Assembly: GCF_035989265.1 (NCBI RefSeq)
Contig: NZ_JAYKZX010000003.1
Span: 1,426,001-1,490,000, forward strand
DNA length: 64,000 nt
Origin: Sphingobium sp. HWE2-09
GTDB lineage: Bacteria > Pseudomonadota > Alphaproteobacteria > Sphingomonadales > Sphingomonadaceae
Direction: 5' to 3'
Positions 2,755-38,020 of this stretch are shown here, piece by piece. A program made the position numbers and the translations under genes. The notes under the pieces were generated by a model, which was given only the letters and a program-made list of their open reading frames with translations, had not been told where the DNA came from and searched no databases. Position 1 is the stretch's first letter; every line of letters begins with the position of its first letter.

Positions 2755-2821
2755 CCGTTCGTGTCGAGCGAAGTCGAGACACGCTCGCGCAGACGTTTCT
2801 CGACACGCTCGAAACGAACGG
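2755..2821. repeat. Inverted repeat, GTTCG/GAGCG family A
   Basis: Two 16-base arms, CCGTTCGTGTCGAGCG at 2755-2770 and CGCTCGAAACGAACGG at 2806-2821, can pair with one mismatch to form a hairpin in the glyA-nrdR gap. The right arm ends 11 bases before the nrdR start. Related arms are found at 3319-3345, 3676-3702, 4475-4535 and 32512-32589. Confidence 0.8.
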
Positions 2822-2832
2822 AGTTTATATAA

Positions 2833-3294
2833 ATGCGCTGCCCCTTCTGCGCCCATGAAGACAGCCAGGTGAAGGACAGCCGGCCGACGGAGGATGGCAA
2901 CGCCATCCGCCGCCGCCGCCAGTGCGAAGCCTGCGCCGCGCGCTTCACCACGTTCGAGCGTATCCAGTTGCGCGATATCTGGGTGGTGAAGAGCGAGGGG
3001 CGCAAGGAAGCGTTCGAGCGCGACAAGCTGGCCCGCTCCATCGGCATCGCCTGCCGCAAGCGGCCGATCGATCCCAGTCGGCTGGAAAAGCTGATCTCCG
3101 GCATTCAGCGTCAATTGGAAACCAGCGGCGACAGCGAAGTGCCCGCTCGCGCGATCGGTGAACTGGTGATGGAAGGGCTGAAACGCCTGGACAGCGTCGC
3201 CTATATCCGCTTCGCCAGCGTGTATAAGGACTTTACCGACGCCAAGGATTTCGAGGAATTTGCGAGCACGGTGAAGGAGGTTGGGCGGGAGTGA
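2833..3294 (+). CDS. nrdR: Transcriptional repressor NrdR
   Basis: NrdR is the nucleotide-sensing repressor of ribonucleotide reductase genes. The 153-residue protein has the expected two parts. The first is an N-terminal zinc ribbon with Cys3/Cys6 ([18 protein letters not shown]) and Cys31/Cys34 ([18 protein letters not shown]). The second is an ATP-cone domain from about residue 49 to 139 ([20 protein letters not shown] onwards). Start and length match the family. The glyA-nrdR order is common in Alphaproteobacteria. The start codon lies just after the right arm of a hairpin repeat, in an AT-rich stretch (GAGTTTATATAA) with only a weak ribosome site. Confidence 0.97.
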
Positions 3295-3318
3295 GGGGTG
3301 CTGCGTCCAGTTCTCCAT

Positions 3319-3345
3319 CCGTTCGCCCTGAGCGAAGTCGAAGGG
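3319..3345 (+). repeat. Left arm of 27-bp perfect inverted repeat
   Basis: The 27-base arm begins CCGTTCGCCCTGAGCG and ends AAGTCGAAGGG. Its exact reverse complement is at 3676-3702. The two arms bracket the GIY-YIG nuclease gene, which starts 33 bases inside this arm. The sequence belongs to repeat family A. Confidence 0.9.
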
Positions 3346-3377
3346 CTCGACCGAGCGCAGCGAGGTCCTAATCCGCG

Positions 3378-3827
3378 ATGACCTTTCACACCTATATGCT
3401 GCGCTGTTCGGATGGCTCCTATTATACTGGCCATACGGACAGCTTTGAGACGCGGATAGCACAGCATCAATCCGGGTTGATCAAAGGCTATACCTTCGAT
3501 CGCCGTCCGGTCGAACTGGTTTGGTCTGCAGAATTTGAGACGCGCGCCGAGGCACTCACTTGCGAGCTTCAGATCAAGGGATGGTCACGCCATAAGAAAG
3601 AAGCCCTCATCGCGGAAGATTGGGATAAGTTGAAAAAAGCCGCTATTTCCCACACTTCGCCTTCGCTCAGTGACGCCCTTCGACTTCGCTCAGGGCGAAC
3701 GGAGGGAGAGGCTGTTCAAAAGAATGATATGATGAACTCCATCCTTACTCCTCCCCCTCCCCCGTCATCGTCCTGGTCCGCCCGCAATTGGGCGAGAATA
3801 TCGGGAAGGCCGCGCGGGCTATGCTGA
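3378..3827 (+). CDS. GIY-YIG family nuclease (URI type) with repeat-derived tail
   Basis: This is a small single-domain GIY-YIG protein of the UvrC-intron-endonuclease (URI) type. These are predicted metal-dependent DNA nucleases; most have no known cell role. The fold is seen in residues 1-95: FHTYMLRCSDGSYYTGHT (the GIY and YIG strands), TRIAQHQSG, RRPVELVW and ELQIKGWSRHKKEALI. Normal members end near residue 95-100. Here the frame has no stop there and runs through the right inverted-repeat arm (3676-3702, coding part of DALRLRSGRTEG), ending in low-complexity PPPPPSSSW that overlaps the next gene. The tail is probably not functional. A perfect inverted repeat encloses the gene. Confidence 0.8.
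   Translation: MTFHTYMLRCSDGSYYTGHTDSFETRIAQHQSGLIKGYTFDRRPVELVWSAEFETRAEALTCELQIKGWSRHKKEALIAEDWDKLKKAAISHTSPSLSDALRLRSGRTEGEAVQKNDMMNSILTPPPPPSSSWSARNWARISGRPRGLC
3676..3702 (-). repeat. Right arm of 27-bp perfect inverted repeat
   Basis: This is the exact reverse complement of 3319-3345. It lies inside the open reading frame of the GIY-YIG gene and supplies its C-terminal codons. A partial copy, CTTCGCTCAG at 3661-3670, precedes it, which suggests slippage or a second insertion. Confidence 0.9.
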
Positions 3828-4465
3828 ATTTCGGGCTGACCGAAATGCGGCTGGTCAGCCCACGCGATGGCTGGCCCAATCCCGATGCGGGGCCGTCGGC
3901 GGCGGGCGCGGACTTCATTCTGGATCAGGCGCAGGTCTATGAGACGCTGGCGGATGCGGTCGCGGACTGCGCGCATGTCTATGCCACCACCGTGCGCAAG
4001 CGCGGCGTGACCAAGCCGGTCGTGACGCCGGAGGAAGCCGCGCGCGAAGTCCATGCCGCGCAGGGCCGCTGCGCCTATGTGTTCGGGCCGGAACGGTCGG
4101 GGCTGGAGACGGAGGATGTCGCGGTCGCGCGCAAGATCCTGACCGTGCCAATCAATCCGGAGTTCGGATCGCTGAACCTGGCGCAGGCGGTGATCCTGTG
4201 CGCCTATGAATGGTCGAAGCAGGCTGACCTTGTGCAACCGACCATCACCGACCTTGGCGAACCGGCGCCGCAGGAGGAACTGGAAGGGATGATCGGGCAG
4301 CTGGATGCGCTACTGGTCAAGGTCGGCTATTTCTTCCCGCCCGACCGCGCCGGTGCGACGCGGTTGACGTTACGCAACCTGCTGACCAAGCCGGGCTGGA
4401 ACCATCTGGAAGTGCGGACGCTGCGCGGCGTGCTGTCACATCTGGCGCGGCCGCGGGAACGTTGA
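3788..4465 (+). CDS. TrmJ-like tRNA/rRNA methyltransferase (SPOUT), N-terminus disrupted
   Basis: This is an RNA 2'-O-methyltransferase of the SpoU/TrmH family, closest in layout to TrmJ, using S-adenosylmethionine. The visible protein has the SPOUT motifs GENIGKAARAMLNFG, AYVFGPERSGLETEDV and SLNLAQAVILCAYEW. The only standard start is TTG3788, which cuts off the first beta strand. The missing residues VIVLVRPQL are encoded in the same frame at 3764-3790. The proper ATG (3729 or 3732, MNSILTPPP) is one base out of frame, across a run of five C at 3759-3763. One more C would restore the normal N-terminus. Either the sequence has a 1-base error or this copy is frameshifted. Confidence 0.8.
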   Translation: MGENIGKAARAMLNFGLTEMRLVSPRDGWPNPDAGPSAAGADFILDQAQVYETLADAVADCAHVYATTVRKRGVTKPVVTPEEAAREVHAAQGRCAYVFGPERSGLETEDVAVARKILTVPINPEFGSLNLAQAVILCAYEWSKQADLVQPTITDLGEPAPQEELEGMIGQLDALLVKVGYFFPPDRAGATRLTLRNLLTKPGWNHLEVRTLRGVLSHLARPRER

Positions 4466-4474
4466 ACCCAGTCT

Positions 4475-4535
4475 CCGTTCGGTTCGAGCCCGTCGAGAAG
4501 GTAGCACATGTTCTCGACAGGCTCGAACCGAACGG
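4475..4535. repeat. Hairpin repeat, family A, between convergent genes
   Basis: CCGTTCGGTTCGAGCC at 4475-4490 is the perfect reverse complement of GGCTCGAACCGAACGG at 4520-4535, with further pairing inward (GTCGAGAA / TTCTCGAC). It lies between the convergent trmJ-like and chorismate mutase genes and probably serves as a two-way terminator. Confidence 0.85.
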
Positions 4536-29068: not shown

Positions 29069-30568
29069 TTAACCCGCCAGCGCCTTCTTCACCAGTTCGT
29101 TGACGACCTGCGGGTTGGCCTTGCCCTGCATCGCCTTCATCGTCTGACCGACGAAGAAACCGAACAAGGCTTCCTTGCCGCTGCGATATTGTTCGACTTT
29201 GTCGCCATTGTCGGCCAGCACCTTGGCTACCGCCGCTTCGATAGCGCCGGTATCTGAAGTCTGCTTCAGCCCCTTTTCCTCGACGATCTTGCCGGGCTTG
29301 TCGCCGGTTTCCAGCATGATTTCGAACACCTGCTTGGCGATCGTGCCGCTGATCGTGCCGTCGGCGACCAGCGCCAGCAATTCGGCGCCTTCCTCTGGGC
29401 TTACCGGACTGTCTTCCAGGCTTTTGCCGATGCGGTTGAGCGCGCCGTAAAGTTCGGACAGCAGCCAGTTGGCCGATGCCTTGGCAACGTCGCCCTCGCT
29501 CTTGTTCTGGATGCGGGCGGCCTGCGCCACCAGCGTTTCGAACCAGCGCGCGGTGTCGGCGTCGGCGGTCAGGGTCGCGGCATTATAGGCGGACAGGCCC
29601 AGTGCCTGCTCGTAGCGCTTGCGCTTGACGTCGGGCAATTCGGGCAGCGAGGCGCGGCATTCCTCCAGGAACGCGTCGTCCAGTTCCAGCGGCAACAGGT
29701 CGGGATCGGGGAAGTAGCGATAGTCGTGCGCATCTTCCTTCGACCGCATCGAGCGCGTTTCGTTGCGGTCCGGATCGTAGAGCCGCGTTTCCTGCACGAT
29801 CTTGCCGCCCGCTTCCAGCACATCGACCTGCCGGTTCGCCTCATGCTCGACCACGGCCATGACGAAGCGGACCGAATTGACGTTCTTCGTTTCGGTGCGG
29901 GTGCCAAATTCCTCGCCGGGCTTGCGGACCGACACGTTTACGTCGGCGCGCATCGACCCCTGGTCCATATTGCCGTCGCACGAGCCGACATAGCGCAGAA
30001 TTGTGCGCAACTTCGCCAGATAGGCACCAGCTTCGGCAGGCGATCGCATGTCCGGCTTCGACACGATTTCCATCAGCGCGACGCCCGACCGGTTGAGATC
30101 AACATAGGAGCTGGTGGGATGCTGGTCGTGCATCAGCTTGCCCGCGTCCTGTTCGACATGGATGCGCTCGACCCCGATCACCTTGGTGCTGGTGTCGGGG
30201 TTCTTTTCGTCCAGCACGATCTCGATCTGACCTTCGCCTACGATCGGGTGATAGAGCTGGCTGATCTGATAGCCCTGCGGCAGATCGGCGTAGAAATAAT
30301 TCTTGCGGTCGAAGCGCGACCATTTGTTGATCTGCGCATCGATCGCCATGCCGGTGCGCACCGCCTGACGGATGCATTCCTGATTGGGGACGGGCAGCAT
30401 GCCGGGCATGGCCGCGTCGACCAGGCTGACCTGCGTGTTCGGCTCCGCGCCAAAGGCGGTGGCGGCGCCCGAGAAGAGCTTGGCGTTCGACGTCACCTGG
30501 GCATGGACTTCCAGGCCGACCACGACCTCCCACTCGCCGGTTGCGCCCTGGATGCGATAGCTGCTCAT
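29069..30568 (-). CDS. gatB: Asp-tRNA(Asn)/Glu-tRNA(Gln) amidotransferase subunit B
   Basis: GatB is the kinase and tRNA-binding subunit of GatCAB, which converts misacylated Glu-tRNA(Gln) and Asp-tRNA(Asn) to the correct amides. The 499-residue protein has the signature [20 protein letters not shown] near residue 15, [20 protein letters not shown], and [20 protein letters not shown] in the central part. The C-terminal YqeY-like tail domain runs from about 350 to 499 ([20 protein letters not shown]). The start overlaps the stop of the membrane-protein gene by four bases (ATGA). Confidence 0.98.
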
Positions 30569-30984
30569 TTTTTCAAGTTCCGATGATGAATATAGTTGAT
30601 CGTGGTCAGGACGGCGTTGCTGCCGAGCAGGCCGAACACCCAGCAGGCGGTCAGGACGCGCAGGACGACGACCTCAAACCCCAGTTGCGCCCCGACATGG
30701 TGGGCGAACAGCGCCGCCAGCAAAGCCCCGGCCAGAAACAGGCCGCCCATCCAGAATTCGCCGCGCAGGATGACGGCATTGCCGACGCACAGTCCCAGGA
30801 TGAACAGCGCGATCAGGACGAAGAATTTGGCAAGCAGCACATGGTCGAACCGCACATTATCGATGTCAGCCAGCGAATTGCCGACATAGGCGCTGAGGAT
30901 CGCGCCGAAGGCGACGTTCAGCGCATTCTGCGCCTCTCGCAGCACTTCGACATTGCGTTCCCGAAAACCGCCCGGTCTGAACAT
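30565..30984 (-). CDS. Membrane protein between gatA and gatB, unknown function
   Basis: This 139-residue protein has three clear hydrophobic helices: about residues 53-73 ([20 protein letters not shown]), 77-97 ([20 protein letters not shown]) and 103-123 ([20 protein letters not shown]). A weaker fourth lies near residue 20-37. The N-terminus ([20 protein letters not shown]) is basic and cytoplasmic-looking. I do not recognise the family. It lies 33 bases after gatA and overlaps gatB by 4 bases, so it is translated together with the amidotransferase genes, though no link to tRNA amidation is evident. Confidence 0.7.
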
Positions 30985-31017
30985 GCGTTCTCCGTCTCTG
31001 GGCCTTGCCTCTCTAAC

Positions 31018-32502
31018 TTACCACCACTTGCCCGGCCGTGCGACGAAGCCCGCCCGTTCTTCGATCGCCAGACCCGCGTTCAGCACGGTCTGTTCGTCCA
31101 GCGCCTTGCCGATGATCTGGAGGCCCAGCGGCAGACCCGCCGAATCCAGTCCGCCCGGCACGGCCATGGCGGGCAACCCGGCCAGCGAGGCGGGCACGGT
31201 GAAGACGTCGTTCAGATACATGGCGAGCGGATCGGCCTGCTTTTCGCCTAACGCGAACGATGCGCTCGGCGCGGTCGGGGTCAGCAGCAGGTCGCATGTC
31301 TCGAACGCCTGTTCGAAGTCGCGTGCAATCAGCGCCCGGACCTTCTGCGCCTGGGTATAATAGGCGTCATAAAAGCCCGCCGACAGCACATAGGTGCCGA
31401 TCATGATGCGGCGCTTGACCTCCGGACCGAAACCGGCGGCGCGGGTCGCGGCATACATGTACTGCAAGCCTGCGCCGTCGGGCAGGTCGCGCTGGCCGTA
31501 GCGCACGCCGTCATAGCGGGCGAGGTTGGACGAGGCTTCGGCAGGCGCGATGATATAATAGGTCGGCAGCGCATATTTCGTGTGCGGCAGCGATACTTCG
31601 ACCACGTCGGCCCCGGCATCCTTGAGCCAGGCGATGCCGCGATCCCACAGGGCGGAGATTTCCGGGTTCAGGCCGTCAGGGCGATATTCCGTGGGAATGC
31701 CGACCGTCTTGCCCTTAAGGTCGCTCGACAGATTGGCTTCCCACTGGGGCACGGCCAGATCGAGGCTTGTCGAATCCTTGGGATCGAAGCCCGACATGAC
31801 TTCCAGCAGGATCGCATTGTCACGCACCGTCCGCGCCATCGGCCCGGCCTGATCGAGCGAGGAGGCGAAGGCCACGATGCCCCAGCGCGAGCAGCGGCCA
31901 TAGGTCGGCTTGATGCCGCTGATGCCGGTGAAGGCGGCGGGCTGGCGGATCGAGCCGCCGGTGTCGGTGCCGGTCGCAGCCGGGCAAAGCCGCGCCGCGA
32001 TGGCGGAGGACGAACCGCCCGACGAGCCGCCCGGGGCCAGCGCGGCATTGCCGCCGTCATTGCGCCGCCAGGGCGAGATTACATTGCCATAATAGCTCGT
32101 TTCGTTGGACGATCCCATGGCGAACTGGTCAAGGTTGAGCTTGCCCAGCATCCCCGCGCCTGCCGCCCACAGCTTGCCCGACACGGTCAATTCATAGGTC
32201 GGTACGAAGCCTTCGAGCATATGGCTCGCGGCGGTGGTCTGCGTGCCCTCGGTGCAGAACAAGTCCTTCATGCCGATCGGCACGCCAGCCAGCGCACCTG
32301 TCGTTTCGCCGGCCGCTTTCGCCTTGTCGGCGGCGTCGGCGGCTTCCAGCGCCTTGTCCGGCGTTTCCACGATGAAGGCGTTCAGCGCACTGGCGGCGGC
32401 GACATTGGCGTTGAACGCGCTCGCCACTTCGCGTGCGGAAAAATCGCCCGCGCGGAAACCGTCGCGAATGTCGGCTACGGTAAGATCAGTCAGATCAGTC
32501 AA
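31018..32502 (-). CDS. gatA: Asp-tRNA(Asn)/Glu-tRNA(Gln) amidotransferase subunit A
   Basis: GatA is the amidase subunit that releases ammonia from glutamine for GatCAB. It has the amidase-signature Ser-cis-Ser-Lys fold: the Lys in [13 protein letters not shown], the Ser pair in [16 protein letters not shown], and [19 protein letters not shown]. The family N-terminus [18 protein letters not shown] starts at TTG32502, giving 494 residues. The frame is open to 32574, but that part translates repeat DNA and is unlikely to be made. GGGAAAAAG before the TTG is a usable ribosome site and comes partly from the repeat. Order on the minus strand: gatC, gatA, membrane protein, gatB. Confidence 0.95.
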
Positions 32503-32511
32503 AATCTTTTT

Positions 32512-32589
32512 CCCGTTCGGGCCGAGCCTGTCGAAGCCCTGCCCTTCTTGAAAAGAAAAACGGCCCTTCGACAAGCTCAGGGCGAACGG
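32512..32589. repeat. Imperfect inverted repeat, family A, between gatC and gatA
   Basis: Left arm CCCGTTCGGGCCGAGCCTGT (from 32512) and right arm ACAAGCTCAGGGCGAACGG (to 32589) are imperfect reverse complements. The right arm differs from the 3676-3702 arm only around its middle. The element separates gatC from gatA and ends 10 bases upstream of the gatA TTG. Confidence 0.8.
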
Positions 32590-36902: not shown

Positions 36903-37083
36903 ATGCACTCCCTGTACGCCGCATGGCAAAGCCGTGGGCGCCGTTCAACCTCTCGCCGCAATCGATGCGGCTCGACGCTAACGTGCGAGGGCGGGATAAA
37001 ATCCATTACTTGATCGAAATGACGGTGAAGCGTGGCTTGGTAGCGTCCACCTGAAAAGGCGTGCGCTTCGCTCGTCAAGAGCA

Positions 37084-37141
37084 GCGTGTTCCCCGTCGGC
37101 GGGAGCCATGGGACTGGGTTCCCGCCTGCGCGGGAACACGC
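37084..37141. repeat. Nested hairpin downstream of serB
   Basis: GCGTGTTCCC (37084-37093) pairs with GGGAACACGC (37132-37141). An inner alternative is GTTCCCGC (37118-37125) with GCGGGAAC (37130-37137). The element lies just after the serB stop on the minus strand and probably ends that transcript. It is similar in style to 7467-7494. Confidence 0.7.
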
Positions 37142-37144
37142 GGC

Positions 37145-38020
37145 TTATTGCACCCACTCGGCAGACGGGATGCCCTGCGCGTAGAGCAGTACCGACAGGT
37201 CGCCATGGACGATTTCGGCGGCGGCGGCGGCGCGGGTTACGGGCTTGGCATGATAGGCGACGCCCAGCCCTGCACCCTGGATCATCGGAATGTCGTTGGC
37301 GCCGTCGCCCACCGCCAACGTCAGCGCCCGGTCGATGCCGCCCGCGATCGCGGCTTCCAGTTCGGTCCGCTTGCGCGCGGCGTCCACGATCGGCGTGGCG
37401 ACGGTGCCCAGCAGCGCGCCATCGGCGATCTCCAGAACGTTGGCGACATTCGCGTCGAAACCAATTTCTTGCGCCACCGGGCCAGTGAAGCGGGTGAAGC
37501 CGCCCGACACCAGCAACGTCTTCGCGCCGCGCGCCTTCATCGTGCGGACGAGCGCCTTTGCGCCGCCCATGATCACGACGCGCTCCTCGCGGCACTGATC
37601 GATGGCGCTGTCGGGCAAGCCCTTGAGCAGCGCAACGCGGCCATGCAGCGCGCCTTCGAAATCCAGCTCGCCGCGCATCGCCCGTTCGGTGATCTCGGCG
37701 ATCTGCGGCTTGATGCCCGCATAGTCGGCCAGTTCGTCGATGCACTCGACGGTGATCATGGTGGAATCCATGTCGGCGATCAGCAGCTTTTTCTCGCGGT
37801 TGGCGGTCGGTTGAACGATGACGTCCACCTTGTCGCCCACGCCTGCCAGCGCCGCGCGCGCCGCGACCGGATCGGCGGCGAAGACGATGTCGGCGGCCTT
37901 GGCTTCGTCCAGCCATGCGATGTCGCCCGGCTGGCACCCGGCATCGCGCAGGCGGTCCACGGCCTGCGCAATATCCCCCTGCCCGAGTTGATCACTTGCC
38001 ACTAAGGTCGCGACGAACAT
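37145..38020 (-). CDS. serB: Phosphoserine phosphatase
   Basis: SerB dephosphorylates phosphoserine, the last step of serine synthesis. The 291-residue protein has an N-terminal regulatory region (about 1-80) and a HAD domain: motif [13 protein letters not shown] with the nucleophile Asp, the cap with [17 protein letters not shown], motif [15 protein letters not shown] and motif [22 protein letters not shown]38020 is set by a good AGGAG site 8 bases upstream. The start codon shares the palindrome CATG with an ATG on the other strand that could start miaA. Confidence 0.96.

Follow-up and report, generated by a model that had tools for sequence, protein, structure and literature searches.

The 64,000-nucleotide stretch of contig NZ_JAYKZX010000003.1 of Sphingobium sp. 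HWE2-09 analysed in this work (the window) carries a small GIY-YIG endonuclease gene between nrdR and a trmJ-like RNA methyltransferase gene; this gene and the inverted repeat enclosing it are here called the cassette (Table 1). As already described in the initial annotation, the two 27-bp cores of the repeat are exact reverse complements, and they are nested in a longer 49-nt pair with 88% complementarity. By chance a perfect 27-mer is expected about 5e-12 times in a comparison of 250 x 350 bp at equal base frequencies. The placement of the arms just outside and just inside the ends of the gene was also confirmed, the left arm being located 5' of the GIY-YIG ATG and the right arm within the 3' end, with the open reading frame (ORF) running through it. 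Both arms are composed of a CCGTTCG head, a short GCCC/GGGC stem and a long loop. No intrinsic terminator was scored at the arms, and on this ground they were rejected as terminators.

PF01541 is the sole domain matched in the window protein, which is predicted to have a GIY-YIG fold (mean predicted local distance difference test, pLDDT, of 88). The nearest solved chains to the predicted fold are UPF0213 (1zg2, 1ywl), then Slx1 (6seh, 4xlg; a weak match, E ~0.01) and then UvrC. The residues Y, Y, G, R, H, E and N, which have their roles in the GIY-YIG active site, are invariant in 16 diverse proteins of group 1, the other of the two repeat-associated clades described below, and for this reason the nuclease is likely to be active.

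Table 1. Position of the cassette, its neighbours and the gene-less repeat pairs in the window
Feature	Position	Strand	Remarks
Left (upstream) arm	3312..3360	+	head outward; perfect 27-bp core 3319-3345 (CCGTTCG head and hairpin GCCC...GGGC)
Right (downstream) arm	3661..3709	-	head outward; perfect 27-bp core 3676-3702
Small GIY-YIG endonuclease gene	3378..3827	+	group 2 of repeat-associated clades; 149 aa; Pfam PF01541, E 1.5e-17
nrdR	2833..3294	+	left neighbour of the slot
trmJ-like RNA methyltransferase (ORF as listed)	3788..4465	+	right neighbour of the slot
REPIN-like inverted pair, CCGTTCG subfamily	2755..2821	.	between glyA and nrdR, no nuclease
REPIN-like inverted pair, GTTCGAGC subfamily	4475..4535	.	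downstream of trmJ; missing there in several genus members
REPIN-like inverted pair, GGGCCGAGC / CCCTGAGC stems	32513..32589	.	empty site (1 bp) in relatives G074 and G068

Enclosure of GIY-YIG genes by inverted repeats

In order to detect arms around other GIY-YIG genes, 250 bp upstream were aligned with the reverse complement of 350 bp downstream and scored against a threshold. In a draw of 60 Sphingomonadales genomes inverted arms were found at 47 of 76 GIY-YIG hits and at 1 of 192 ORFs of the 10-kb loci containing them, while mismatched pairings of upstream and downstream sequences reached the threshold in 18 of 377 cases. The 76 hits come from 29 loci (30 hits, among the matches listed), the six loci of the own genome and 40 further regions. 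Another 23 matches not taken for UvrC had been omitted initially; one gave no hit and 12 of the remaining 22 were armed (one arm, that of L407, being not REP-like by eye; REP, repetitive extragenic palindrome), which brings the total for the order to 59 of 98. The expectation of the initial annotation that arms flank these genes more often than other genes was borne out in this draw, in the added matches and in a set of named loci, in which 58 of 77 were armed against 1 of 117 control ORFs. These named loci are the best 80 of 588 candidates, three being dropped for short flanks; mismatched pairings reached the threshold frequently here (1790 of 5852) because one repeat family is common to many of the loci. 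In a phylum-wide draw, counted from the rows at one per locus, 17 of 28 loci were armed (29 searched, one without hit; an automatic count of 19/30 had taken split domains twice, and L101 and L156 are one gene), and 65 of 866 mismatched pairings reached the threshold. Outside the Pseudomonadota the named loci lie on metagenome or single-cell contigs, and among them arms were present in Omnitrophota (2/3), Elusimicrobia (1/1) and Nitrospira (1/1) and absent in Anaerolineae (0/2) and Berkelbacteria (0/1); the sole match in Bipolaricaulota was not REP-like by eye.

The association is specific for part of the GIY-YIG family. In the 73 of the 76 hits that could be placed in the tree, 46 of 56 rows were armed in the two repeat-associated clades, groups 1 and 2, and 0 of 17 in other GIY-YIG clades. 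Enclosure of every GIY-YIG gene was rejected accordingly. Armless GIY-YIG genes, which at the outset had been regarded as speaking against a link, do exist, and 17 of the 27 armless tree rows belong to the other clades.

A second approach was the density of CGTC-type hairpins around 133 of 138 group-1 loci. Within the first 100 bp upstream there are 0.722 hairpins per locus against 0.0073 per 100 bp at a distance of 1.2-2.8 kb, and within the first 100 bp downstream 0.639 against 0.0108, so that density at the gene edges is about 60-100 times that at distance. Hairpins on both sides were found in 76 of the 133 loci, 65 of these with head-out polarity. With the same finder, none of 182 control ORFs was flanked by hairpins at both ends, and at 17 loci from other GIY-YIG clades no hairpin was seen on either side (the ones listed as armless; L117, with a score of 31, was omitted and the UvrC-like L007 gave no hit). 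Based on the ORF and hairpin controls, enclosure by chance or as a general property of nearby genes was rejected. The statement in the initial annotation that such proteins often carry tails translated from the repeats holds in part, as in 39 of 121 armed cases the GIY-YIG ORF reaches into the downstream arm or traverses it. In one locus (L060:1300-2700) two tandem GIY-YIG genes with identical domains are located within a hairpin-repeat array.

Repeat families and their nucleases

The own genome contains seven GIY-YIG matches. Six of them have inverted repeats around them, whose arms belong to different families; the seventh lies in a 658-codon frame and is presumably UvrC. One of the six arm families is the CCGTTCG type and the other five are GTTCCCCGGCGAAGGCCGGGG..., CCGTCATGCTGAAC..., CGTCATTCCCGCG..., GTGTTCCCGCG... 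and CGTCACCCCGGGC...; by eye the six arms start with CCGTTCG, GTT, CCGTC, CGTC, GTG and CGTC, and none carries the GTAG tag of the GTAG REP superfamily. All six enclosed genes can be read as small, including that of L006, whose frame is open for 282 codons upstream. Copies of the own arms were counted in 800 kb (18% of the genome) allowing up to four mismatches: there were 47 for L005, 28 for L002, 14 for L004 (overlap with L005 is likely) and 10 for L006, and 0 for each of the reversed arm sequences. Nine L002 pairs each measure 66 bp and have a 12-nt spacer of varying sequence and seemingly unrelated surroundings. A REP-associated tyrosine transposase (RAYT) of the same genome as driver was rejected, since PF01797 (Y1 transposase) had 0 matches in the own genome. 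More generally, the Y1 transposase family is without match in 8 of the 11 genomes with a group-2 nuclease (the own and 7 of the other 10).

The initial annotation had recognised the same arm type at three nuclease-free sites of the window. All three are inverted pairs sharing the head CCGTTCG....GAGC with the cassette, and this part of the claim stands; they are related sister subfamilies with other stems and not copies of the exact 27-mer, and among the gene-less sites only the arm 32575-32589 has the CCCTGAGC stem start. The head has 8 exact matches in the window, and 9 with one mismatch allowed against 3.03 expected by shuffling. Over the whole genome CCGTTCGNNNNGAGC matches 146 times against 2 for the backward pattern. 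The CCGTTCG repeat can be described as a fixed head followed by a variable hairpin, in which stem letters vary and pairing is kept across subfamilies (GCCC/GGGC, GTTC/GAAC, TTTC/GAAA, TGTC/GACA). Of 36 CCGTTCGNNNNGAGC motifs in the sampled 800 kb, 24 form 12 close pairs with heads outward. Covariation of the stem in 33 arms amounted to 31 cells changed on both sides against 7.0 after shuffling (0/500 reaching it), with the restriction that the 33 come from 41 distinct arm rows and that dropping the eight with three stem mismatches favours pairing. From this strong covariation it follows that the conserved thing is the hairpin plus its head.

A tree was built from 85 GIY-YIG domains over 86 columns, in which 41 of 80 inner branches were left open. 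The CCGTTCG arms fall in one clade (Shimodaira-Hasegawa-like approximate likelihood ratio test, SH-aLRT, 98) and the CGTC-like arms in another. Head type needs one change on this tree against a shuffled minimum of 13 (22 CCGTTCG and 33 CGTC-like rows), and 8 changes against a minimum of 29 if 'none' is taken as a third state; for this test L001, L070, L071, L076 and L104 were relabelled by hand as CCGTTCG, since the automatic label was tripped by GTCAC-like letters in the longer arm, and L117 stayed unlabelled. Finer matches are also evident, with one subclade having GTCATTGCGAG arms and another CTTG-type loops. In this comparison enzyme and repeats co-diverge, as they do in RAYT systems.

The number of cognate repeats was then compared with the presence of the nuclease. 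A group-2 nuclease, recognised by a match to the window protein below 1e-20, is present in 11 genomes, in which CCGTTCGNNCTGAGC occurs 0, 0, 11, 19, 23, 32, 45, 72, 74, 84 and 117 times (median 32), whereas the 49 genomes without it have a median of 0 and a maximum of 28 (p 8e-6); within the own family the comparison of 8 with 6 genomes gave p 0.008. For TCATTCCCGCGNANGCGGGAATCC the counts in the six genomes with a nuclease bearing that arm are 3, 6, 16, 23, 41 and 41, against a median of 0 and a maximum of 29 in 54 other genomes (p 2e-6). With the exceptions discussed below, the number of cognate REPs in these genomes follows enzyme presence, again as for RAYTs.

Some further features of the region and of its counterparts in relatives were noted. 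An inverted pair like the L005 repeat family, in decayed form, is present at window 37036-37151 and not in G073, G074 and G068 (by eye; for G068 from length alone). At window 30560-31018 there are about 457 bp, in place of which G060 and G074 have 15 bp. The glyA-nrdR gap, which holds REP pairs at this place in other species, is occupied in L068 by a long inverted repeat rich in G+C (AAAGCCCCTCCCGATCGGG ... CCCGATCGGGAGGGGCTTT), which has no relation to the REP families.

Gain, loss and exchange of cassettes

Comparison of the nrdR-trmJ slot in 25 genus members showed gene and arms in 13, remnants in three and a bare gap of 41-79 bp in nine. The nuclease and arms account for 462 bp in the window, which are replaced by 4 bp in the relative G061, so that the empty site sought on the basis of the initial annotation was found. 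Also the gene-less pair at 32513-32589 has its empty site, 106-109 bp here containing the pair and 1 bp being present in G074 and G068. Gene and arms are in these comparisons present or absent as a unit, and together with the enrichment of arms this lends support to the suggestion of the initial annotation that the layout is the one expected if the nuclease mobilises the repeats.

The slot hosts three arm types. Two of them, A and GTTC, are intermingled in three species groups (SH-aLRT 98-100). In the nuclease tree a single clade (95) contains the A-type nucleases, and those of the GTTC type fall into two (89, 83). It follows from the intermingled slot types and the nuclease clades that cassettes have been exchanged or re-inserted as units. 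In G005 and G044 GIY-YIG frames continue into trmJ, i.e. the same slot is used in other genera. Two other slots are also variable: out of 30 loci each, the L004 slot has the gene in 15, none in 14 and a partial gene in one, and the L002 slot has the gene in two and a partial gene in two. When three proteins at one slot were compared in 23 same-type pairs, which are not independent, the GIY-YIG protein showed the lowest conservation in 20. As far as these pairs allow, the enzyme evolves faster than the neighbouring genes, another property of RAYTs.

Individual slots show rearrangements or other contents. In the nrdR-trmJ gap of L079 (G063) a long-type GIY-YIG cassette and remnants of GTTC-type arms are separated by a second trmJ 5' end, an arrangement as after recombination between nested elements. 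In L387 (G068) an inverted pair beginning with the CATGCTGAACTTG family is found in the L004 slot in place of the GIY-YIG cassette. In the L002 slot of L347-L371, the interval from about reference 1395, where one block ends, to about 1825, where the next starts, contains a conserved intergenic sequence of some 98 bp, which is carried by many cassette-free relatives and in which hairpin stem letters co-vary (core AGGCTGCGCACTTACCTGG ... GGTGCAG); the one locus searched gave no Rfam match at the gathering threshold. In the window itself, the ATGs at 3724, 3729 and 3732 are out of the frame of the trmJ body, with a C-rich tract between, and the listed TTG start of trmJ at 3788 falls inside the conserved N-terminal region (both by eye).

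A candidate REP system driven by a GIY-YIG nuclease

We propose that the small GIY-YIG nuclease is the enzyme of a REP element system of which the window contains one member. An element would consist of one nuclease gene between inverted hairpin repeats, usually with the head outward followed by the hairpin and a tail toward the gene, and related hairpins would be scattered as short gene-less inverted pairs. The nuclease, we infer, recognises the hairpin, either as an extruded cruciform or as a single-stranded hairpin on the lagging strand, and cuts at its head; host repair or replication would then copy or insert the pair elsewhere. In this way the nuclease may cause the spread of the pairs, which would move as non-autonomous derivatives with the gene staying at low copy. 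A dispersed repeat and the cassette end share 48 nt at 92%, past the hairpin, a likeness that would fit an internally deleted derivative. The nuclease clades would serve separate repeat families, group 1 the CGTC-tagged REPs and group 2 the CCGTTCG-headed repeats. We consider it likely that these cassettes form a REP element class of their own, with a GIY-YIG nuclease as the driving enzyme.

A number of observations weigh against this proposal. By eye neither a target-site duplication nor a target motif was evident on comparison of empty and filled sites and of repeat-pair flanks, the divergence between the species-level relatives being limiting. Strand joining is not known for GIY-YIG enzymes, so the full cycle needs host functions. 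The copy-number tests over 60 genomes ignore phylogeny; G010 (29 copies) and G040 (28) have repeats without a detected cognate nuclease, and G025 and G043 have the nuclease and 0 copies of the tested motif, the nuclease copy of G025 having an in-frame stop and the arm of G043 being a variant. In the 800 kb sampled the exact 28-nt window arm has 3 near copies with up to four mismatches, and the L003 arm has no copy. By the arm test 10 of the 56 group-1 and group-2 rows and 19 of the 77 named loci are without arms, and the nearest hairpin is head-in in 26 of 88 upstream and 31 of 89 downstream cases.

Alternatively, the GIY-YIG gene could be a homing parasite: gene-less pairs would be cut in their spacer by its product and the gene copied in via recombination of the arms, with the repeats spreading otherwise. 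It does occupy the place of the spacer between two inverted hairpins, cassettes of differing type replace one another at the nrdR-trmJ slot, and GIY-YIG enzymes are classical homing nucleases; I-TevI, for example, has Y, Y, R, H, E and N at positions which we take to be equivalent. Many filled pairs would then be expected, but against 146 CCGTTCG heads in the genome there is a single gene with such arms, and homing leaves unexplained that repeat number tracks nuclease presence. Differences from the I-TevI type are the single domain, the enclosure by dispersed hairpins and the presence of one gene per many gene-less pairs; an intron or intein context was not seen for the cassette. We regard homing as unlikely. 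Equally doubtful to us is a host maintenance enzyme trimming or resolving REP hairpins, whose own flanking hairpins are regulatory (e.g. autoregulation via mRNA or DNA hairpins), the repeats spreading otherwise. Use of one slot in several genera, like a domesticated function, the overlap of the downstream hairpin by part of the ORFs and the presence among the fold neighbours of Slx1, which processes branched DNA, would suit such an enzyme, but gene and arms are gained and lost as a unit, with nine bare slots in 25 genus members, sequence changes faster than in both neighbours, and the arms have no scored terminator-like site.

Most improbable is passive enclosure, in which hairpins moved by another enzyme gather in short gaps between genes, with the GIY-YIG gene carried along as a hitchhiker. 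Repeat pairs do adjoin other genes, and G010 and G040 show that repeats occur where no cognate nuclease is detected; this explanation is difficult to reconcile with the near absence of enclosed control ORFs (1/192 and 1/117 in the same loci), with an arm type that tracks the nuclease clade and with the missing match to the Y1 family, the known REP enzyme class, in most group-2 genomes.

The proposed GIY-YIG system resembles most closely the RAYTs or REPtrons with their GTAG REPs, REP doublets forming hairpins (REPINs) and bacterial interspersed mosaic elements (BIMEs) (PMC2817692; PMC3733652). In both, one enzyme gene lies between two inverted REPs, and cognate REPs occur dispersed, frequently in inverted pairs; REP and enzyme diverge together, the number of REPs can be predicted from the presence of the enzyme, and the enzyme outpaces its neighbours in change. 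The differences are a GIY-YIG nuclease here in place of a Y1 HUH transposase, and heads of CGTC type or CCGTTCG in place of GTAG. Nunvar et al. (2010, PMC2817692) established RAYTs by four hallmarks, namely inverted REPs flanking the gene on either side, co-evolution, rapid change and a correlation with the number of REPs, and in the tests made here all four are found with an unrelated enzyme. By enzyme class the cassettes are outside every known REP system tested; their layout and genomic behaviour match REPtrons. They do not correspond to a classical insertion sequence, having the GIY-YIG domain only and no duplication by eye, within the limits set by divergence. UPF0213 proteins are the nearest solved relatives by sequence and fold and share the single-domain GIY-YIG fold and the size; the other GIY-YIG clades of the order are armless (0/17 rows). 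Slx1 is a multi-domain eukaryotic enzyme working with Slx4. It shares the fold, and its action on branched DNA parallels the action on hairpins that we propose; it differs in not being tied to repeats.

CGTC REPs were described as lacking a dedicated transposase, with no association with transposase genes in Table 1 of that work, and were equated with the neisserial dRS3 and the rickettsial RPE-4 and RPE-6 repeats (Di Nocera et al. 2013, PMC3733652). Many group-1 arms share with them the CGTC-like tag, an 8-bp stem with AT start, a 4-5 nt loop and a CCA tail, as well as the inverted dimers and the occurrence in alpha-proteobacteria. Tag, stem of 8-9 bp, loop of 4-5 nt and CCA tail were found in the arms of L003, L004 and L006 and of many group-1 loci, except that the tail of L006 is CCC; L002 and L005 are without the CGTC tag. 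The window arm 3319-3345 lacks this combination of tag, stem and loop, its CCGTTCG repeats having another head. A difference is the GIY-YIG gene between the repeats, no transposase gene being reported in PMC3733652. Among the open-licence papers listed, screened by title, start of abstract and term counts, none joining GIY-YIG with REPs was found, and a report may exist elsewhere; the main text of the 2025 REP survey RepRanger (PMC12306157) has no word beginning with nuclease. The widespread partnership of small GIY-YIG nucleases with REP-like hairpins is apparently undescribed.

On balance we favour the view that GIY-YIG nucleases are an independent and ancient REP-spreading class in Pseudomonadota and perhaps several other phyla, that they are the missing partners of the CGTC REPs and of the CCGTTCG repeats, and that REP/REPIN replicators have at least two origins, with nucleases unrelated to each other. 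The enzyme spreading CGTC REPs, if any, was left open by Di Nocera et al. (2013, PMC3733652), and the GIY-YIG gene inside matched CGTC REP pairs is a testable candidate. If this is true, REP spread would be a convergent invention by two unrelated nucleases and GIY-YIG nucleases would join the enzymes driving mobile repeats in bacteria. Many small GIY-YIG proteins would thereby gain a suggested function, and their odd tails of repeat origin would be explained.
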